Source: Leifsonia sp. 466MF (GTDB lineage: Bacteria > Actinomycetota > Actinomycetes > Actinomycetales > Microbacteriaceae). From it: DNA of 64,000 nt. Position 1 is the first letter of the stretch; every line of letters begins with the position of its first letter. Of this stretch, positions 5,883-64,000 are shown piece after piece. Made by a program: the position numbers and the translations under genes. The stretch covers positions 1,612,001-1,676,000 of the forward strand of contig NZ_LT629696.1 in assembly GCF_900100265.1 (NCBI RefSeq). Reading direction: 5' to 3'. Under the pieces are notes generated by a model. The model was not told the DNA's origin and did not search any database. It saw only the letters and a list, made by a program, of their open reading frames with translations.

Positions 5883-6695
5883 ATGGGCGACACTGGATCG
5901 GATGACCTGACGGCGAGCGGGGCGGCGGCGGATCGCGCGGCGGCGGATCGTGCGGCACCGGACCGCGCGGCGGCCGACGAGGCGGCGAGCGGGCCGCACC
6001 CGGACGAACCGCACCGCGGTGGCTTGGCGCAGCGCCTGAACTGGCTGCGCGCCGGCGTCCTCGGGGCGAACGACGGCATCGTCTCGGTCGCCGCCGTCGT
6101 GGTCGGCGTGGCGGGGGCGACGGCCTCTGTTGCGGCGATCGTGACGGCAGGGCTGGCGGCACTCGTGGGTGGGGCGATCTCGATGGCTCTGGGCGAGTAC
6201 GTCTCGGTGAGCAGCCAGCGTGACAGCGAACGATCGCTGATCGCGAAGGAGCGCCGCGAACTTGCGGAGATGCCGGAGGAGGAACTGGACGAGCTGACGG
6301 GTCTGTACGAGCAGCGGGGGCTGACGCCGGCCACGGCGCGACAGGTCGCCGTGGAGCTCACCGCGCATGACGCCCTCGCCGCGCACCTGTCGGCGGAGCT
6401 CGGAATCGACCAGGACGACGTCGTCAGCCCGTGGCATGCCGCGCTCGCATCGGCCGTCGCGTTCACGTGCGGCGCCGTGCTCCCGATGCTGACCATCCTG
6501 CTTCCCGCTGCGTTCCGCATCCCGGTCACGTTCGTCGCGGTGCTCGTCGCCCTGGCCGTCACCGGCTATGTCGCGGCGTGGATCGGGGGCAGTTCCCGCG
6601 GTCGTGCCATGGTACGAGTGGTGGTGGGAGGCGCGTTGGCGCTGGCTGCGACGTTCATCGTCGGGTCTCTGCTCGGCACCACCGTCGCCGGCTGA
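5883..6695 (+). CDS. VIT1/CCC1-family metal transporter
   Basis: A 270-residue membrane protein of the vacuolar-iron-transporter family, which moves Fe2+ or Mn2+ in exchange for protons. The signature GVLGANDGIVSVAAVVVG starts the first membrane helix, and a second helix pair holds SMALGEYVSVSSQRD. A cytoplasmic acidic helical hairpin (AEMPEEELDELTGLYEQRG) matches the family's metal-binding region. Three further helices follow. The first 45 residues are an unusual Ala/Asp/Arg-rich repeat (AADRAA units). A second VIT protein, with a ferritin-like domain, is encoded at 22675-23763. Confidence 0.9.
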   Translation: MGDTGSDDLTASGAAADRAAADRAAPDRAAADEAASGPHPDEPHRGGLAQRLNWLRAGVLGANDGIVSVAAVVVGVAGATASVAAIVTAGLAALVGGAISMALGEYVSVSSQRDSERSLIAKERRELAEMPEEELDELTGLYEQRGLTPATARQVAVELTAHDALAAHLSAELGIDQDDVVSPWHAALASAVAFTCGAVLPMLTILLPAAFRIPVTFVAVLVALAVTGYVAAWIGGSSRGRAMVRVVVGGALALAATFIVGSLLGTTVAG

Positions 6696-6725
6696 CCGGC
6701 GGCGGACGAGAAAGGGAGACGCAGG

Positions 6726-7559
6726 ATGGTGGATGCGCAGGACCGCGAGGCCGCGGTGAATGTGATGCCCAGCGAGGGCGGCATGAAGGACAAGGAGGCC
6801 ATCGTCCGCGACTGGCTCCCGCGCTACACCGGCACTCCGTTGGAGGAGTTCGGCGAGTACATTCTGCTGACCAACTTCGGCGACTACGTGCAGCGCTTCG
6901 CCGACTGGTACGGCGCCGAGGTGCGCGGGCTGGATCGCTCGATGCCGAATGCGACGGCGGACGGGATCACGATGGTCGACTTCGGGATGGGCAGCCCGAA
7001 TGCGGCGACGATCATGGACCTGCTGACCGCTGTGTGTCCGAAAGCCGCCCTGTTTCTGGGCAAGTGCGGCGGGGTGAAGCGTAAGAACAAGCTCGGCGAC
7101 CTCGTGCTGCCGATCGCGGCGATCCGCGGCGAGGGCACGTCGAACGACTACCTGCCTCCCGAGGTGCCAGCGCTCCCGGCGTTCCAGTTGCAGCGCGCCG
7201 TGTCGTCCACCATCCGCGACTTCCAGCAGGACTACTGGACGGGCACCGTCTTCACGACGAACCGCCGAGTCTGGGAGCACGACGAAACCTTCAAGGAGTA
7301 CCTGAAGCGGACGCGGTGCATGGCCGTCGACATGGAGACGGCGACGGTGTTCGCAGCGGGTTTCGCCAACCGCATCCCGAGCGGGGCGCTGCTGCTCATC
7401 TCGGATCAGCCGATGACGCCGGAGGGCGTGAAGACGGCGGAGAGCGATCTCGGGGTGACGCGCGATTTCGTCGAGCGTCACATCCGGATCGGCGTGGAGG
7501 CGCTCCGTCTGGTCCGCCGCAACGGTCGCAGTGTGCGGCACCTGCGGTTCGAGGAGTGA
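6726..7559 (+). CDS. amn: AMP nucleosidase, short form
   Basis: Predicted to hydrolyse AMP to adenine and ribose 5-phosphate, a cytoplasmic purine-salvage step. It belongs to the nucleoside-phosphorylase fold: FLGKCGGVKRKNKLGDLVLP provides the phosphate-site region and AVDMETATVFAAG the conserved Met-Glu nucleoside site. It has 277 residues, against about 480 in E. coli Amn, so the N-terminal regulatory domain is absent, as in other short bacterial forms. ATG 6726 has an AAAGGGAG Shine-Dalgarno upstream. It converges with dnaE2. Confidence 0.88.
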   Translation: MVDAQDREAAVNVMPSEGGMKDKEAIVRDWLPRYTGTPLEEFGEYILLTNFGDYVQRFADWYGAEVRGLDRSMPNATADGITMVDFGMGSPNAATIMDLLTAVCPKAALFLGKCGGVKRKNKLGDLVLPIAAIRGEGTSNDYLPPEVPALPAFQLQRAVSSTIRDFQQDYWTGTVFTTNRRVWEHDETFKEYLKRTRCMAVDMETATVFAAGFANRIPSGALLLISDQPMTPEGVKTAESDLGVTRDFVERHIRIGVEALRLVRRNGRSVRHLRFEE

Positions 7560-7585
7560 CGGTACGCGCTGCGGCCTGAGGCGGC

Positions 7586-10500
7586 TCATCGGAAGTCCCT
7601 CGAGACGGTTCGGATGCCGGTGTCGAGTGCTTCGAGCCGGTCGGCGAGCACATTGACGACGCCTTCCTCGCTGCGCTCCAGAATGCCGCGGACGATCATC
7701 GCCGGTGCCTGGCGGGCGACCCGGCGATAGCGATTCCAGACCCCGACCGGGCAGATGACGTTCACCATCCCGGTCTCGTCCTCGATGTTGAGGAACGTGA
7801 CTCCTGCCGCCGTCGCCGGACGCTGTCGATGCGTCACCACGCCGCCCACCTCGATGCGCCGGCCGGATTCGCCCGCGGCGAGCGTGTCGGCCGGGCGGAC
7901 GCCGCGGGCGGCGAGCGCCGGGCGCAGGAAGCGGATGGGATGGTCGTCGGTCGAGATACCGGTCGCCCACAGGTCGCTGGCGAGCTGTTCGGCGGGGGAG
8001 AGCATCGGCAGCAGGGGCGGCTGCACGGTGATCGCCGTGCCGGCGAGGTACTCCGGTCGCTCCTGGGCGGCGTTGCCGGCCTCCCAGATCGCCTGCCGCC
8101 TGCTCAGGTCGAAGCCGTCGAACGCGCCGGCGGCGGCGAGCGCCTCCAGCTGACCGGTGTTGAGTCCGGTGCGCCGGGCGAGGTCGCCGAGGTCGCGGTA
8201 GGGGCCGTACGCTTCGCGCTCGGCGACGATGCGCTCCGCGACCTTCTCGCCGATCGAGGTGACCGCCGCGAGGCCGAGGCGTACCGCGTGACCGGCGTCG
8301 CGACGGTGCGCGGCGAAGTCGAGCGGGACCGCGGGATCGAAGGGGTCGATCGGCGGCTGATCGGTCTGCAGGCACGGATCGGATCCGGTCGGCCCGCGCT
8401 GGGCGTCCGGATCGTCGAGCGGCTCGAGGAGCGGGAAGACGCCGGAGCGCTGGATGTCGGGGCGGTGCACGGTCACGCCGTGCCGGCGTGCGTCGGCGGT
8501 GAGGGTGCGCGGTGAGTAGAAACCCATGGGCTGGGCGCGCAGCAGCCCGGCGAGGAACGCGCCCGGGTAGTGCAGCTTCATCCACGAACTGACGTAGACG
8601 AGTAGCGCGAAGCTGATCGCGTGGCTCTCCGCGAAGCCGAAGTTGGCGAACGCCTCGATCTTCTCGTAGATGGCGTCGGCGTCGGCTCCGGTGATGCCGT
8701 TGTTCGCCATCCCGTCGTACAGCTTCGCTTTGAGCGCTTCGATCTTCTCCACCCCGCGTTTGGACCCCATTGCGCGGCGCAGCAGGTCGGCGTCTTCCGC
8801 CGTGCAGTCGCCGACCGCGACCGCCATCTGCATCAGCTGCTCCTGGAACAGAGGGACGCCCATCGTGCGCTCCAGCACCGGCACGAGTGAGGGGTGCAGG
8901 TAGGTGACCGGTTCCTTGCCGAGCTTCCGGCGGATGTACGGATGCACCGCCCCACCTTGGATGGGACCGGGGCGGATGAGCGCGATCTCGATCACGAGGT
9001 CGTAGAAGCTGCGGGGCTGAAGTCGCGGCAGGGTGCCGATCTGGGCGCGGCTCTCCACCTGGAAGACGCCGATCGAGTCGGCTCGGCAGAGCATGTCGTA
9101 GACGCCCTGCTCCTCCTTCGGGATGCTGTCGAGCGTCCACTTCTCGCCGAGCGACGCCTCGATGGTGCGCATCGAGTAGTCGAGCGCCGACAGCATCCCG
9201 AGGCCGAGGAGGTCGAACTTGACCAGCCCCATCCACGCGCAGTCGTCTTTGTCCCACTGCAGCACGGTGCGGCCCTCCATGCGGGCGTGCTCGATCGGGC
9301 ACACCTCGCCGACGGGCCGGTCGGTGAGGACCATCCCGCCCGAGTGGATGCCGAGGTGCCGTGGGAACTTGAGCACCTGTTGCGCGAGACCCACCACGTC
9401 GTCCGGGATGTCGTGGTCGTCGCTGGTCTGGACGGTGCCCCACGAGTCGATCTGCTTGCTCCAGGCGTCCTGCTGGCCGGTGGAGTAGCCGAGTGCCTTC
9501 GCCATGTCGCGCACGGCGTTCTTGGGGCGGTAGGTGATCACGTTGGCGACCTGCGCCGCGTTGTGCCTGCCGTACTTGGCGTAGACGTACTGGATGACCT
9601 CCTCCCGGCGATCGGAGTCGAAGTCGACGTCGATGTCGGGCTCCTCCTCGCGCATGCTGGAGAGGAACCGCTCGAACGGCAGGTCGTACTTGATCGAGTC
9701 GACGGCGGTGATCCCGAGCAGGTAGACGACCGCCGAGTTCGCCGCGGATCCGCGACCCTGGCAGAGGATGCCGCGGCTGCGGGCGAACCGGACGATGTCG
9801 TGGACGATGAGGAAGTAGCCGGGGAAGTCCTTCGCCTCGATCACATCCAGCTCGCGTTCGATGCGCTCGCGTTTCGCCGGGTTGCTGTCGAGGTCGGGAT
9901 ACCGTTCGGCGGCGCCCTGCCAGGTGAGCTCGCGCAGCCAGCTCATCGGCGTGTGGCCCTCAGGGACGTCCTGTTTCGGCAGCCGGGGGCGTGCGCTGCG
10001 GAGACGGAAGGAGAGGTCGTCGGCGATCTCGACGGTCCGTTCGACGGCGCCGGGGTAGCGCGCGAACCGGCGGGCCATCTCGGCACCGCTGCGCAGGTGG
10101 GCCGCTCCGGCGGCGGGCAGCCAGCCGTCGAGTTCGTCGAGGCTGCGGCGGGCGCGCACGGCGGCGACGGCGGTCGCCAGGGGGTATTGCGCCGGGCTCG
10201 CATAGTGGACGTTGTTGGTCGCAACGGTCGGCAGCCCGAGCCGGCCGGCGATACGGGTGAGGATGTCGTTGTCGGTCGAGTCGCGCGGGGCGCCCTGATC
10301 GATCAGCTCGACGAGCACGTTGTCGTGCCCGAACAGGTCGGCGAGCCGCGCGACCTCCCGCTCCGCTGCACGTTCGCCGTGCTCGGCGAGGGCCAGCCGG
10401 ACGTCGCCCTTCCGGCATCCGGTCAGCACCATCCATTCGCCGCCCGACTGCTCGGCGAGCTCGTCGAGCCGGTACACCGGCCGCCCCTTCTCCTCGCCGG

Positions 10501-58114: not shown

Positions 58115-58768
58115 TCAGAGCCCGTCAGGCTTCCGCCACTCGATGACCTCCAGGTCGGGCTGAGCCTCCAGACTGAGCATCAACCCTTCTGATCCGCTCA
58201 CCTTCGTGCCCAGCAGATCCCAATCCGTCCAGACGAACCAGCTGTGATCCGTCGGCCAGAGGTTGCTGGGTGTCGCCCGGAACTTCCCGCCGTTGTCGGA
58301 CAACAGCTCCGGGACCCGGCGCAGCGGGAGCTGGTACATGTTCACAGTGTCGAAATCCATCGTGGACAACCCGCCGAAATAAGCGATGCACTCCTGCTCG
58401 GGGCCGTCCGCCGAGTGGGTGGCGAGCACATCCAGCAGTGCGTCGAGGTCTTCGGCTTCGAGAGATCCTTCTTCGGGCGGCAAGATATTCGTGGGCCACG
58501 GTTGCCAGGGAAACCACGCCAGGCTCGGCGGTAGGTCCTGTGCGCTCGGATTCACCCCGAGGTCGGCCAGGAGCGGGACCCATCGCAGGCGATCCGCGTC
58601 GTCAGGCGCCGTGAGGGAGCCGAGCCCTGCTGTCCGATACATCCTGTGCAGTACCCAGCGAGACGCCGGCCAGCCGACCTGATCGAAACCTGTGGTGACC
58701 TGCCATTTCGGCAGAGCAGCAAACCACTTCAGCTCGCGGCGCGCTTGCCCACGACGCAACTCACGCAT
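58115..58768 (-). CDS. Hypothetical protein
   Basis: A 217-residue protein I do not recognise. It is Trp-rich (WFPWQPWP, WFVWTDWDLLG), acidic and soluble, with no signal peptide or Cys clusters except one. The C-terminal segment (TDHSWFVWTDWDLLGTKVSG) resembles small-cargo or immunity-type proteins only superficially. It starts at ATG 58768 and ends 23 bases from the DUF2199 fragment, convergent with it. Confidence 0.6.
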   Translation of the reverse strand: MRELRRGQARRELKWFAALPKWQVTTGFDQVGWPASRWVLHRMYRTAGLGSLTAPDDADRLRWVPLLADLGVNPSAQDLPPSLAWFPWQPWPTNILPPEEGSLEAEDLDALLDVLATHSADGPEQECIAYFGGLSTMDFDTVNMYQLPLRRVPELLSDNGGKFRATPSNLWPTDHSWFVWTDWDLLGTKVSGSEGLMLSLEAQPDLEVIEWRKPDGL

Positions 58769-58825
58769 GATCTGAAACTAACAGTCGACGCGATACCTTC
58801 CGCCGTGCCTGCCCTGGCCACCCCG

Positions 58826-59440
58826 TTAGGCGGACCACGGCTCCGCAGCGTGCGCGAGCCACACCTGCTGCGGGTCGAGGGAGCGGATGAGGCGCTGGCC
58901 CTCGGTCTCCGGCGCGTCGAGTTCTCCGAACCACACGGCGGTGTCGCCGGCGATGACGATGGGCCGCTCCCCCGTCTCCACCACGACGATCTGCGAGCCG
59001 CGGGTGTGCCCGGGCGCCGGGACCAACCGGATGCCGGGCAGCAGCTCGAGTTCTCCGTCGACCGGCGTGTACTCGACGCCGGGCGCATCCACCCACTCCC
59101 GGATCGTGTAGTCGTCCCGGGTGCGCGCATCCTCGAGTTCCGCCCTCTGCACATAGATCGGGCGTCCGGCGAAGAGATGGTTTCCGCCGCAGTGGTCGAA
59201 GTGCAGGTGCGTGTTGACGACCGCGGTGATGCTGTCGAGGTCGACGTCCGCGTGCTCGCTCAGAGGCTCCAGCTGCGGGTCCATGTCGGCGACAGCAGGA
59301 TGCAGCGCGGTGAGCCCGGTGTCGACCAGGATGCGACCGTCGGGGTGATCGATGAGGTGGACGAACACCGGAAGCCGCCGGTCCTCCCCCACGAGAAGGC
59401 TCGCGACGCGGACAGGAGTGACGGTGACGGACGTTGTCAT
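58826..59440 (-). CDS. MBL-fold metallohydrolase
   Basis: A 204-residue metallo-beta-lactamase-fold enzyme. The metal motif is NTHLHFDHCGGN (HxHxDH), then PAPGHTRGSQ supplies the next His and GDTAVWFGE the bridging Asp. A final His is in WLAHAAEPW. The N-acyl homoserine lactonase/quorum-quenching group and glyoxalase II share this plan; substrate not determined. ATG 59440 lies six bases from TACTGT. Divergent from the reductase-HelR operon. Confidence 0.88.
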   Translation of the reverse strand: MTTSVTVTPVRVASLLVGEDRRLPVFVHLIDHPDGRILVDTGLTALHPAVADMDPQLEPLSEHADVDLDSITAVVNTHLHFDHCGGNHLFAGRPIYVQRAELEDARTRDDYTIREWVDAPGVEYTPVDGELELLPGIRLVPAPGHTRGSQIVVVETGERPIVIAGDTAVWFGELDAPETEGQRLIRSLDPQQVWLAHAAEPWSA

Positions 59441-59446
59441 GCGGTC

Positions 59447-59452
59447 ACAGTA
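59447..59452 (-). promoter_or_regulatory. Predicted -10 box of the MBL gene
   Basis: TACTGT on the minus strand, six bases before ATG 59440. It implies that the dyad at 59470-59496 is upstream of transcription start. Confidence 0.4.
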
Positions 59453-59469
59453 CCGGCAATGGGCACAAA

Positions 59470-59496
59470 AAATGCGAGGAATATCACCTCGCATTT
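59470..59496. promoter_or_regulatory. 10-bp inverted repeat before the MBL gene
   Basis: AAATGCGAGG (59470-59479) and CCTCGCATTT (59487-59496) form a perfect stem with a seven-base spacer. On the minus strand it ends in a six-T run, like a terminator, but it overlaps the -35 position of the MBL promoter, so an operator is also possible. It lies 20 bases from the RAE-like element. Confidence 0.55.
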
Positions 59497-59514
59497 CCAG
59501 AATATATCAGGCCA

Positions 59515-59537
59515 GGGGGCTTGCCACAAGAGTCCCC
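59515..59537 (+). promoter_or_regulatory. RAE-like (rifamycin-associated element) dyad
   Basis: GGGGCTTGC, two bases, CAAG, three bases, CCCC. From memory the actinobacterial RAE is GGGGCTTGCGGCAAGGCCC, an inverted repeat found before rifamycin-resistance genes such as rph and helR. The left nine bases match exactly and the CAAG...CCC half is conserved. TTGCCA inside it could be a -35, with CAGACT (59546-59551) as -10 at 19-base spacing. It lies about 50 bases upstream of the first reductase start. Confidence 0.7.
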
Positions 59538-59588
59538 TCCCCCGGCAGACTGCACTCTCGGCCGATTCCAGCAGGAGGGCACAGCACC

Positions 59589-60218
59589 GTGAGCATCGTC
59601 GTCGCCAGTCAGACCATCACCGCCGACGGGTACGCCGCCGGCATCAACCAGACCGAGGAGCGCCCCTTCGGCGAGGACGGCGGAGACGGATGGGGTGACC
59701 GGCTCCACGCGTGGATGTTCGACCAGGGCGACGAGAACCGGGCGGAGGTCGAGCAGATGGCCGGCGCCCGCGCGCACATCATGGGCCGGAACATGTTCGG
59801 GCCGGTTCGCGGCGAGTGGGATCGCGACTGGAACGGGTGGTGGGGCGACGATCCGCCCTTCCACGGTCCCGTCTTCGTGCTCACCCACCACGCGCGCGAG
59901 CCGCAGCGGATGGAGGGTGGCACCACTTATCACTTCGTCACCGACGGCATCGAGTCGGCATTGGCGCAGGCGCGGGAGGCCGCGGGTGACGGCGAGATCT
60001 CCATCCAGGGCGGCGCGGACACGATCAACCAGTACCTCGCGGCTGGGCTGGTCGACGAGCTGCGGCTGCACATCGTCCCGTTCACTCTCGGTGCCGGCGC
60101 CCGCCTGTTCGACGGGGTGCCTCCGCTGAACCTGGAACAGGTCTCCGCCCGAGCGGCGAGCACGGTCGTCCACGTCACCTACCGGGTACTGCGGGATGCA
60201 ACGAGAAGGAGCAAGTGA
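59589..60218 (+). CDS. RibD-C/'dihydrofolate reductase family' reductase 1
   Basis: A 209-residue member of the RibD C-terminal/DHFR-like superfamily. MSIVVASQTITADGYAAG at the start and ISIQGGADTINQYLAAGLVD at about residue 140 are the family signatures. It is not a classical folate DHFR: the folate-site Asp/Glu is not visible. Likely NADPH-dependent reduction of an unknown substrate. GTG 59589 has CAGGAGG upstream. First gene of an operon; its stop overlaps the ATG of the second reductase. Confidence 0.87.
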   Translation: MSIVVASQTITADGYAAGINQTEERPFGEDGGDGWGDRLHAWMFDQGDENRAEVEQMAGARAHIMGRNMFGPVRGEWDRDWNGWWGDDPPFHGPVFVLTHHAREPQRMEGGTTYHFVTDGIESALAQAREAAGDGEISIQGGADTINQYLAAGLVDELRLHIVPFTLGAGARLFDGVPPLNLEQVSARAASTVVHVTYRVLRDATRRSK

Positions 60219-60790
60219 TGGCGACAGTCCTCTACATGTCGGTTTCGCTCGACGGATACGTGTCGACGCCCGACGACTTCCTCGGCGGCACCGACGGCAA
60301 CCGCCTGCACGACTGGTACGAACCCGGTGGAGACCCGGACGCGCTGACCGGGGAGGCGAAAAACCTCGCGGGAGAGCTCGACCAGATCGGCGCCGTGGTC
60401 ACCGGCCGGCGCACCGCCGAGCTGATGGACCACTGGGGCGGGGACGTGCACAACGGCGTTCCCATCTTCGTCCCGAGCCACCGGCCGCCCGGGCCGGCAG
60501 CCCGCTGGGGCTACCCGAACGTCACGTACGTGCTCGACGGCATCGCGAGCGCGATGAAACAGGCGGTCGCCGCGGCCGGTGAACGCAACGTCTACGTCCA
60601 GGGCGGCTACACCGCGCAGAAGGCGCTCGAAGAAGGGGTGCTGGATGAGATCCAGATCCATCTGATCCCGGTGCTGCTGGGCGGCGGGCATCGCCTGTTC
60701 GACGTGCTCCCCGCCGAGATCGAGCTCGAGATCGTGAAGGTCATCGACACGCCGCACGCCACCCACATCCGCTACCGGGTGCTGCGCTGA
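60218..60790 (+). CDS. RibD-C/'dihydrofolate reductase family' reductase 2
   Basis: A 190-residue paralogue of the preceding reductase. ATVLYMSVSLDGYVSTPDDF opens the fold, VVTGRRTAELMDHWGG and NVYVQGGYTAQKALEEGVLD match the cofactor-site blocks. The start ATG overlaps the first reductase stop (TGATG); an in-frame GTG at 60215 adds one residue. HelR follows 46 bases later. The two paralogues are only moderately alike, so an old duplication. Confidence 0.87.
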   Translation: MATVLYMSVSLDGYVSTPDDFLGGTDGNRLHDWYEPGGDPDALTGEAKNLAGELDQIGAVVTGRRTAELMDHWGGDVHNGVPIFVPSHRPPGPAARWGYPNVTYVLDGIASAMKQAVAAAGERNVYVQGGYTAQKALEEGVLDEIQIHLIPVLLGGGHRLFDVLPAEIELEIVKVIDTPHATHIRYRVLR

Positions 60791-60835
60791 TCCCCTGACG
60801 CTTCCCTTCCCCGTTTCTCCACTGATTGGACCGCG

Positions 60836-63178
60836 ATGACCCTTGCCCTCCTGACCCCGTTCGCTCTCGACGCACATCCCGCCAAGGCCGCACCCGAGCT
60901 GATCGACGACGACGTTCGCCACTTCGCCCGGATCGAGGCGCGCCTGGCAGCCGAGCGCACGGAGGTCGATAGTCGCCTCGCGGTGCTGCTGGCGACACCC
61001 GGCGGGAACGGGCAGGAGGCGTACGAGCGGGAGGTGGAGATCGTCCGGCTGAACCGGCGCGCGCGGTTGCTGCGCCGGTTCGGGGCCGACCTCTGCATCG
61101 GGCGGGTGGTGGCCGACGCGGGAACGATTTACATCGGTCGCGCCGGCTTGGCGGACGCCCACGGCGACCGGCTGCTGGTCGACTGGCGCACCCCCGCGGC
61201 CGAGCCGTTCTTCGGTGCCACGCTCGCGCACCCGATGGGACTGACATCCCGGCGCCGCTATCGATGGACCGACCGCCGCGTGACGGACTACTGGGACGAG
61301 GCCTTCACCGAGGCGGCCGCCTCCTCCCCCGCCGCGCTCGACGACCAGTCTGCGTTCATCGCCAGCCTCGGTGCGAGCCGGACTCCGCGGATGCGGGATG
61401 TGCTGGGCACCATCCAAGCGGACCAGGATGCGATCATCCGCGCCGACGGCCAGGGCACCCTGGTGGTCGACGGCGGACCGGGCACGGGGAAGACGGTGGT
61501 CGCGCTGCACCGCGCCGCCTACCTCCTGTACTCCGACCCGCGGCTGCAGAGCGGGCATGGCGGCGTACTGTTCGTCGGACCGTCCCACGCCTACACCGAC
61601 TACGTCGCCGACATCCTGCCGGGCCTCGGCGAGGAGGGCGTGCGCACCTGCACCCTCACCGACCTCGTGCCGCAGGGTGGAGAAGCCGTGCCCGAGCCGG
61701 ACCGCCGTGTCGCGCTGCTCAAGGGCGACGGCCGGATGCCCGGGGTCGTCGAAGCCGCGATCCGGCTCTCTGAGCGCCCGCCGTCGCGTCCGACCGTGCT
61801 CGACACCCCCTGGGGCGAGCTCCGCATCGGCCAGAGGGAGTGGGCCGAGGCGCTCGCCGCGGCAGACCCGGCCACACCGCACAACGACGCTCGGGCGGAG
61901 ATCCGGGAGGCGCTGCTCGACATCCTGGTCGATATCGTCTCCACCCGGAACGGCGAGAGCGACGCAGTGGGTCACGGCCGGTGGAGCGGCGAAGGGTGGG
62001 GCGACGCGGGATGGGACGACGGGGACTGGGATGACGCAGCGTCCTCTCGTGACGACGACGCCCCGCGCTGGGGGTTCGATGACGAGGAGGAGTTCGACGC
62101 CTATGGGCTGGCCGGCGGAAGGACGGACGCCGACGCGATCCGGCGCACGCTGACCGACGACACCGACCTGCTTGCGGTGTTCGACACGGTGTGGCCGCTC
62201 CTCGACCCGGCCGCGATCGTCCGCAGGCTGTGGAGCTCCCCCGCTTTGCTGCTTCGCTGCGCGCCGTGGCTGACCACCGATCAGGCCGCGATGCTCCAGA
62301 GATCGCCGTCCGACCCGTGGACGGTGGGCGACCTCCCGTTGCTCGATGCGGCCCTGCAGCGCGCGGGAGACCCCGAGCGGGATCGCCGCCGCCGCGCGGA
62401 AGCAGCGCGTGCCGCCGCGGACCGGGCCGTGATGGATGACGTCATCCACGACCTCATCGCGACCGACGACTCCGACCTCAAGACGATGTCGATGCTGCGA
62501 GGCCAAGACCTCCGTGCTGCGCTTGACACGTACACCGGCCAGCCCGCCTCCTCCACCGAGCTGCTCGCCGGGCCGTTCGCCCACATCATCGTGGACGAGG
62601 CGCAGGAGCTGACGCCGGCCGAGTGGACGATGGTCACCCGCCGCGTTCCGTCGCACAGCCTGACGGTCGTCGGCGATCGCGCGCAGGCCCGGCACGGTTT
62701 CCCGGAGAGTTGGATCGAGCGGCTCGCCGACGTCGGGCTGCCGGGCGCGACGGTGGCGACACTGTCCGTCAACTACCGGACGCCGGTAGCCGTCATGGAG
62801 CAGGCCGCGCCCGTGATCCGCGCCGTCCTGCCCGACGCCAACGTGCCGACGTCGATCCGGGACAACGGCATCCCGGTGCGGCATGCGCAGGCGTCCGACC
62901 GCGACCGCATCCTCCGCGACTGGCTCGACGCCCATGCCGAGGGCACCGCCTGCGTCATCGGCGACGACGCCTTCGCGGGGATGCCGCGCGTCCGCTCGCT
63001 CAGCGCCGTCGAGGCCAAGGGACTCGAGTTCGACCTCGTGCTCCTCGCGGCGCCCGGCACACGTCAGGACGGTGCCGCGCTCGATCGCGCGTGCGACATC
63101 GAGTCGGCGGTCGATCGCTACGTGGCCATGACCCGGACGACCGGCGAACTCGTCATCCTCGATGAGTCGGACTACTGA
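60836..63178 (+). CDS. helR: HelD/HelR-type RNA polymerase-recycling ATPase
   Basis: A 780-residue UvrD-like SF1 ATPase of the actinobacterial HelD class. It removes stalled RNA polymerase and, as HelR, displaces rifamycins (family knowledge). An N-terminal coiled coil (about residues 25-80) is followed by the 1A domain with Walker A GGPGTGKTVVALHRAAYLL (about 212). An acidic Trp/Gly-rich insertion (about 372-427, GWGDAGWDDGDWDDA) sits where the primary-channel loop is expected. DEAQELTPAEW (about 587) is Walker B, and the C-terminus has VEAKGLEFDLVLLAAPG and YVAMTRTTGELVIL. Gene symbol rests on the RAE-like element and the acidic loop. Confidence 0.85.
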   Translation: MTLALLTPFALDAHPAKAAPELIDDDVRHFARIEARLAAERTEVDSRLAVLLATPGGNGQEAYEREVEIVRLNRRARLLRRFGADLCIGRVVADAGTIYIGRAGLADAHGDRLLVDWRTPAAEPFFGATLAHPMGLTSRRRYRWTDRRVTDYWDEAFTEAAASSPAALDDQSAFIASLGASRTPRMRDVLGTIQADQDAIIRADGQGTLVVDGGPGTGKTVVALHRAAYLLYSDPRLQSGHGGVLFVGPSHAYTDYVADILPGLGEEGVRTCTLTDLVPQGGEAVPEPDRRVALLKGDGRMPGVVEAAIRLSERPPSRPTVLDTPWGELRIGQREWAEALAAADPATPHNDARAEIREALLDILVDIVSTRNGESDAVGHGRWSGEGWGDAGWDDGDWDDAASSRDDDAPRWGFDDEEEFDAYGLAGGRTDADAIRRTLTDDTDLLAVFDTVWPLLDPAAIVRRLWSSPALLLRCAPWLTTDQAAMLQRSPSDPWTVGDLPLLDAALQRAGDPERDRRRRAEAARAAADRAVMDDVIHDLIATDDSDLKTMSMLRGQDLRAALDTYTGQPASSTELLAGPFAHIIVDEAQELTPAEWTMVTRRVPSHSLTVVGDRAQARHGFPESWIERLADVGLPGATVATLSVNYRTPVAVMEQAAPVIRAVLPDANVPTSIRDNGIPVRHAQASDRDRILRDWLDAHAEGTACVIGDDAFAGMPRVRSLSAVEAKGLEFDLVLLAAPGTRQDGAALDRACDIESAVDRYVAMTRTTGELVILDESDY

Positions 63179-63262
63179 CTTCCCGCCCCGCTCCCCCGCT
63201 GCGATACTTCGGACGACCATCCGCCCGGCCGCTGCGCCGGCACGGATCAGGAAGGCGGCCGC

Positions 63263-64000
63263 ATGAACGGTGATCAGCTCTCGTTGCTCGGCGGCATCCT
63301 GATCCTCGCCGACCTCGCCATCCGTATCGCGGCCCTCATCATCGTGCCGCGCGACCGCAAGCCGACCGCTGCCATGGCGTGGCTTCTGGCGATCTTCCTC
63401 ATCCCGTTCATCGGCATCCTGCTGTTCCTGCTCATCGGCAATCCGCGTCTGCCGAAGAAGCGACGGGAGAAGCAGGATGAGCTGAACCGCATCATCACGG
63501 ACCGAGCCCAGGGCATCGAACTCGTCGACGGGCGCGGGTCCTGGCCGGACTGGTTCGCCTCGCTCGTGCGGCAGAACCACGAGCTCGGCGCCCTCCCCGC
63601 GGTGGGCGGCAACGCGGCCACGCTGATCGGGGACTACCGCGCGTCGATCGACGCGATGACAGCGGACATCGAGACCGCAACCCGTTTCGTCCACGTCGAG
63701 TTCTTCATCGTGTCGTGGGATGCGACCACGAAGCCGTTCTTCGCGGCGATGGAGCGCGCGGTGCAGCGCGGAGTGACCGTGCGTCTCCTCGCCGACTACG
63801 TCGCCTCCCGTCGGGCGGTCGACAGCGACAAGACGTTCGCGGAACTCGACCGGATCGGCGTGAAGTGGAGCTGGATGCTCCCGGTCCGCCCGTTCTCCGG
63901 CGAGTACCAGCGGCCGGATCTGCGCAACCATCGCAAGCTCGTCGTCGTCGACGGCCTCGTCGCCCACATGGGGTCGCAGAACCTCATCGACCGCAGCTAC
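63263..64000 (+). CDS. Cardiolipin synthase, N-terminal part
   Basis: Runs off the right edge after 246 residues. Two N-terminal membrane helices (LLGGILILADLAIRIAALII and AMAWLLAIFLIPFIGILLFL) are the PLDc_N anchor, and the first HKD-type motif NHRKLVVVDGLVAHMGSQN is present near residue 222. This is the bacterial PLD-type cardiolipin synthase plan: phosphatidylglycerol condensation at the membrane. The second HKD motif lies beyond the window. ATG 63263 has AGGAAGG about 10 bases upstream. Confidence 0.92.
   Translation, partial: MNGDQLSLLGGILILADLAIRIAALIIVPRDRKPTAAMAWLLAIFLIPFIGILLFLLIGNPRLPKKRREKQDELNRIITDRAQGIELVDGRGSWPDWFASLVRQNHELGALPAVGGNAATLIGDYRASIDAMTADIETATRFVHVEFFIVSWDATTKPFFAAMERAVQRGVTVRLLADYVASRRAVDSDKTFAELDRIGVKWSWMLPVRPFSGEYQRPDLRNHRKLVVVDGLVAHMGSQNLIDRSY

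Follow-up and report, generated by a model that had tools for sequence, protein, structure and literature searches.

A 64,000-nucleotide stretch of the Leifsonia sp. 466MF genome (contig NZ_LT629696.1, positions 1,612,001 to 1,676,000; called the window here, with positions counted from its first base) carries a rifamycin-associated element (RAE) directly ahead of genes for two RibD_C-type reductases, R1 and R2, and for HelR, an RNA polymerase recycling, rifamycin-displacing ATPase. We think it probable, although with clear reserve, that this is a rifamycin-response operon in which R1-R2 form an accessory layer beside HelR. The host genome (G000 in our set) is 4.14 Mb in one contig. R1 (209 aa; 59589 to 60218), R2 (190 aa; 60218 to 60790), and HelR (780 aa; 60836 to 63178) form a tight, co-directional row of open frames on the + strand downstream of the RAE, with a one-base overlap between the R1 stop and R2 start (TGATG) and 45 bp between R2 and HelR. 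Both reductases match PF01872 (R1, 94.7 bits, E 8.4e-27; R2, 39.4 bits, E 7.5e-10), and the initial annotation's view of two RibD_C reductases plus HelR in one tight row stands. Read from 59470 on the + strand, the order is inverted repeat, upstream box, RAE, CAGACT box, R1, R2, HelR.

That annotation had also placed an RAE dyad just 5′ of the operon, and the anatomy of the site indicates that it is genuine. The dyad GGGG-CTTG-CCA-CAAG-AGT-CCCC (59516 to 59537, + strand; core CTTGCCACAAG at 59520 to 59530) fits the description of a 19-bp palindrome with a CTTG...CAAG core and G/C arms ahead of a resistance gene, its right arm being interrupted by AGT; its assignment to the RAE class is based on this palindrome description and on a matrix built from collected sites, rather than on a published consensus. 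We dropped the loose gapped dyad as sole evidence: it has one match in 4.14 Mb, and its backward control has one forward and one reverse match. Judging from aligned sites, it is the composite promoter, rather than the dyad, that is decisive for a genuine RAE at 59516 to 59537. RAE sites share a fixed-spacing arrangement of an upstream CCACTTCCAA..TATA-type box (logo: CCAcTTCCAa..), the dyad, and a −10-like box; in the window, the whole arrangement spans 59488 to 59551. A matrix trained on 132 RAE promoters, with duplicates removed and none of the five sites from the lineage of the window included, scored the window site at 52.3 (+ strand); the runner-up in the 64 kb, at −12.3, was the same site on the opposite strand. 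When the dyad was masked, the site still scored 30.6, and the next site in the 64 kb scored 7.3.

Fetched loci yielded 145 distinct RAE sites, of which 137 could be oriented; eight were dropped since their gene was unassigned or a sequence end lay too near. In 81 of the 137, a [CT]AG[AG][AC]T box starts precisely 15 bases past the core, at 19 bp from the TTGNNN hexamer in the RAE, and in 34 of the 137, CAG[AG]AT starts 22 bases 5′ of the core. In the window, the corresponding features suggest two promoters. CAGAAT (59498 to 59503, + strand) is the candidate −10 of P1 and lies in an upstream box, CATTTCCAGAATAT, that is conserved across RAE sites; TTGCCA within the RAE (59521 to 59526, + strand) is the candidate −35 of P2, set 19 bp from the conserved −10-like box, CAGACT (59546 to 59551, + strand), the candidate −10 of P2, whose spacing from the core is conserved. 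As described in PMC10719064, the RAE of mycobacterial helD overlaps the −35 of a second promoter, P2, and the predicted layout in the window agrees with this. Just 5′ of the promoter lies a 10-bp inverted repeat, AAATGCGAGG-N7-CCTCGCATTT (59470 to 59496), of a kind that precedes the RAE in only 5 of 137 oriented sites, those of G000 and four other Leifsonia genomes (G217, G207, G208, and G216).

The composite layout allows a more discriminating search than the dyad by itself. All 17 Leifsonia HelR loci over the cut-off bear it (35 to 86 bits), including nine outside the training set. In two of the loci outside that set (G214 and G206), no element was found by pattern, yet the matrix finds one with a degraded right arm; the outer G/C arms of an RAE can degrade while the remaining promoter is kept.

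HelR itself was confidently identified, as initially annotated: the window protein scores 1003.1 bits against the curated motor_HelR model NF041254 (cut-off, 750). Mycobacterium smegmatis HelD (6yxu_H) aligned to it in two stretches (E 4.1e-90). By this alignment, the primary-channel loop is present at residues 529 to 553 (62420 to 62494, + strand); its tip is acidic (TDDSD) and falls close to M. smegmatis D485. According to PMC11464796, the primary-channel loop region of HelD/HelR reaches the rifamycin pocket; in other members of the family (PMC10719064, PMC8655204, PMC12802891, and PMC11464796), HelR ejects rifamycin from RNA polymerase via this loop, and sub-inhibitory rifamycin switches on transcription from RAE promoters. 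The ratio of nonsynonymous to synonymous substitution rates (dN/dS) for HelR was 0.15 to 0.22. Two side observations concern HelR sequences: residues from about 373 to 432 of the window protein (61952 to 62131) form an acidic, tryptophan-rich segment (WSGEGWGD...WDDGDWDD) longer than its M. smegmatis HelD counterpart, and the HelR of G203 (locus L133, about 6084 to 8470) has matches split between frames toward each of its ends, reflecting either sequencing error or decay.

What RAE sites carry elsewhere supports a link to rifamycin. A stricter dyad pattern matched 84 of 398 Microbacteriaceae genomes versus 11 of 398 for the control, and another pattern form matched 165 of 394 class-level genomes versus 14 of 394, both control counts being read by eye from tables. 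The 137 oriented sites point to HelR (n = 96), Rox-like monooxygenase (n = 27), Rgt (n = 5), Rph (n = 5), R1 (n = 3), and a major facilitator superfamily (MFS) transporter (n = 1), with the adjoining gene assigned by a best-frame rule and with many of these loci having been fetched for encoding HelR. Loci retrieved by pattern gave 99 distinct sites, whose first gene was HelR (n = 57), Rox-like (n = 27), Rgt (n = 5), Rph (n = 5), or unassigned (n = 5). Because of this cargo, we conclude that RAE marks rifamycin-resistance genes here and can serve as a genomic tag for them: at 94 of 99 sites, the cargo either protects the target (HelR) or is a drug-modifying enzyme of a known type. Representatives of the cargo matched the rifampin monooxygenase and rifamycin glycosyltransferase models below their curated cut-offs and the rifamycin phosphotransferase model above it; for L217, one of a 28-member Rox-like cluster, general monooxygenase models scored slightly better than the rifampin model. 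G000 has a second RAE (C1:961416; loci L174/L205) directly ahead of a Rox-like flavin adenine dinucleotide monooxygenase, which scores 781.9 bits against NF033145, slightly below the cut-off of 800.

Three further genes near RAE-like sites could be other cargo or chance neighbors. A hemerythrin-domain protein (L247, 4039 to 5244) starts near a site that is otherwise unassigned; an LtrA protein (L155, 167 to 1471) and another MFS transporter (L165, 1579 to 2922) lie near sites whose assigned gene is on the opposite side.

Comparison within Leifsonia documents conservation of the promoter anatomy and gene order, and also loss of the reductases and a swap of their partner (HelR versus MFS). R1 is present at ≥87% identity in 4 of 28 genomes (G000, G217, G207, and G216), and the RAE-R1-R2-HelR order is found in the first three. 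In G216, no HelR in the genome scored over the cut-off; there, an RAE preceded by a repeat like that in the window is followed by an EmrB/LmrB-like MFS exporter (over the TIGR00711 cut-off), a third RibD_C gene, R1, and R2 (L119, 5966 to 9493). The G216 operon may be an RAE-linked export cassette. The R1 tree has weak support inside the Microbacteriaceae and speaks firmly neither for nor against a separate acquisition of R1 by G216. In G208, the RAE lies directly upstream of a HelR that is 88.7% identical to that of the window. In the G208 leader, sequence matching the start of the R1 coding region runs for about 16 to 18 bases and then jumps to a point about 6 bases past the R2 stop; in the HelR tree, G208 groups with G000 and G217 to the exclusion of G207 (97/97 support). 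From the R1 remnant in the leader and the nested HelR position, we infer that G208 lost R1-R2 and kept RAE-HelR; this natural deletion makes G208 a ready comparison genome.

R1 and R2 are about 33 to 35% identical to each other. Both pass the PF01872 gathering score with conserved family columns intact, and both are under purifying selection: dN/dS among the four genomes was 0.08 to 0.15 for R1 and 0.05 to 0.13 for R2. They are probably NADPH dependent, and possibly form a heterodimer, since their genes are overlapping paralogs. Solved relatives (3kgy, yyaP [2gd9], and SfcH [7xh2]) carry labels that include deaminase-reductase and dihydrofolate reductase. SfcH-type RibD_C-like enzymes act on an antibiotic, and the connection to R1/R2 here is a sequence match to the solved chain.

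These features suggest the following scheme. The RAE composite promoter reads into R1-R2-HelR, and rifamycin would induce the operon by analogy with other RAE systems; HelR, acting as it does elsewhere, would eject the drug from RNA polymerase and so protect the target. R1-R2, presumably brought under the control of an RAE within a single Leifsonia lineage, may reduce the drug, an oxidation product of it (such as one made by the Rox-like monooxygenase behind the second RAE of G000), or a metabolite of redox stress. Reductive detoxification by R1-R2 is plausible on this sequence evidence. A broader proposal, in which RibD_C reductases make up a so far unrecognized class of enzymes responding to rifamycin that reductively inactivate the drug or its Rox-type oxidation products and are recruited by RAE alongside HelR or MFS export, is tentative, and we would not put it forward as likely.

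RibD_C genes also occur beside other RAE sites. Leaving aside the three R1-R2-HelR sites and G216, a co-directional RibD_C gene was the immediate neighbor of the RAE unit at 6 of 141 sites (two neighbor slots per site), compared with 0.84 expected (P 2.4e-4) from a background of 592 RibD_C matches across 40 hand-chosen genomes totaling 208 Mb, or with 1.3 expected (P 2.3e-3) at a density similar to that of the densest genomes. All six genes are over the PF01872 cut-off; they lie 5′ of RAE-HelR in G168 and G631, 5′ of RAE-Rox in G207 and G474, and directly after HelR in G069 and G203, and those upstream of the RAE need not be RAE controlled. The excess over chance is moderate, and we read it as a secondary hint, independent of the R1-R2 operons.

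Several points weigh against a drug-specific role for R1-R2. The neighbor test was post hoc, ignores shared ancestry, and included many loci with 1.5-kb flanks only; RibD_C genes are common, as the background density indicates; and G208 dispensed with both reductases while retaining RAE-HelR. Close relatives are also spread over the Actinomycetota: among the best 8,000 candidates scored for each, the best 120 listed were 78 to 97% identical for R1 and 70 to 93% for R2. In 9- to 10-kb stretches around R1 orthologs (74 to 84%) from 11 other genomes, we found no RAE (best matrix score, −27) and no HelR; likewise, 17 R2-type loci (52 to 74%, six of them at 70 to 74%) with 1.5-kb flanks showed neither an RAE (best matrix score, −27 or lower) nor HelR. 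In G592, an R1 ortholog and an R2-like gene (40%) form a tandem that has no RAE. R1 and R2 are, by these comparisons, widespread enzymes that are under RAE here only in Leifsonia. Since none of the close orthologs of either enzyme in our sample has an RAE or HelR nearby, the idea that the reductases alter the drug is weakened.

The initial annotation had proposed looking for the reductase-reductase-HelR order across the Microbacteriaceae. The order is conserved under RAE in 3 of 28 Leifsonia genomes but does not characterize the family in general: RibD_C was the first gene at 0 of 99 RAE sites from pattern-derived loci, a set that does not include the window and G217 sites, although both match the stricter pattern. 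It had also named reductases lying elsewhere without HelR in most relatives as telling against its proposal, which is in part what we found (RAE or HelR at 0 of 11 R1 loci and 0 of 6 R2 loci). R1-R2-HelR as a widespread cassette was dropped, given orthologs without RAE or HelR and no RibD_C gene first at the 99 sites.

The reductases could instead be passengers, that is, general actinobacterial RibD_C enzymes that came to lie behind a strong inducible promoter and are expressed but have no resistance role, with HelR alone doing the work. The orthologs that adjoin neither RAE nor HelR, which in G583 and G564 are also far apart from each other or on separate contigs, fit such an account, as do the deletion of both genes in G208 and the presence of R1 at ≥87% identity in only 4 of 28 Leifsonia genomes. 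Passengers would not be expected to keep intact frames under purifying selection across four genomes, however, nor to remain with the RAE promoter although the partner differs, and the over-representation of RibD_C beside RAE sites also argues against this account, which we find possible but rather doubtful.

The reductases might also repair a consequence of the drug rather than act on it, for example, quinone or oxidative damage, or a pterin- or flavin-type metabolite disturbed by blocked transcription. Their RibD_C/DHFR-like domain, the names of the solved relatives, and the many relatives outside resistance loci among the matches listed are consistent with such a role. Recurrence beside rifamycin cargo would then require rifamycin-specific damage, however, and we regard repair as unlikely. 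Separate gain of R1-R2 between RAE and helR, with G208 representing the older state, would fit the other RAE-helR units looked at, which have no intervening reductase, but is very improbable given the R1 start and post-R2 resumption in the G208 leader and the nested position of its HelR.

Upstream of the operon, a divergent gene (58826 to 59440, − strand; start codon probably 59440) encodes a lactonase-like hydrolase of the metallo-beta-lactamase fold (PF00753, E 5.8e-22), which scored far under the cut-offs of named lactonase models. Relatives of it adjoin the RAE in G217, G207, and G208 (a first-gene cluster of four loci), and it may share a control region with the RAE operon. No Rfam family matched within 58500 to 63400.

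Returning to the operon as an RAE-controlled response with R1-R2 beside HelR, we note that the reductase cargo is constant under RAE while the partner is HelR or an exporter, which makes R1-R2 a directly testable candidate for further resistance chemistry. RAE-controlled HelR was reportedly described by Surette and by Hurst-Hess, both in 2022, in Streptomyces venezuelae and Mycobacterium abscessus. A literature search, judged from its listings, returned no paper coupling RibD_C reductases with RAE or HelR, which says little about the print record as a whole. RAE-controlled HelR of S. venezuelae and M. abscessus is treated in PMC10719064, PMC8655204, and PMC12802891, and PMC8655204 already places two Microbacterium strains in a potential helR group. 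Like those systems, the Leifsonia operon sets a class II HelD/HelR behind an RAE, with a predicted promoter overlap resembling theirs and a score over the curated HelR cut-off; unlike them, its helR is the third gene rather than the first, with two RibD_C reductases between RAE and helR. As with RAE-controlled Rox, Rgt, and Rph, enzyme genes lie directly under the RAE promoter, but R1/R2 are RibD_C reductases rather than a monooxygenase, glycosyltransferase, or phosphotransferase. With the RibD_C/DHFR-like proteins 3kgy, yyaP, and SfcH, they have the domain and conserved columns in common, a likeness of sequence. On its sequence features, R1-R2-HelR under RAE is a variant of the known RAE-HelR system.

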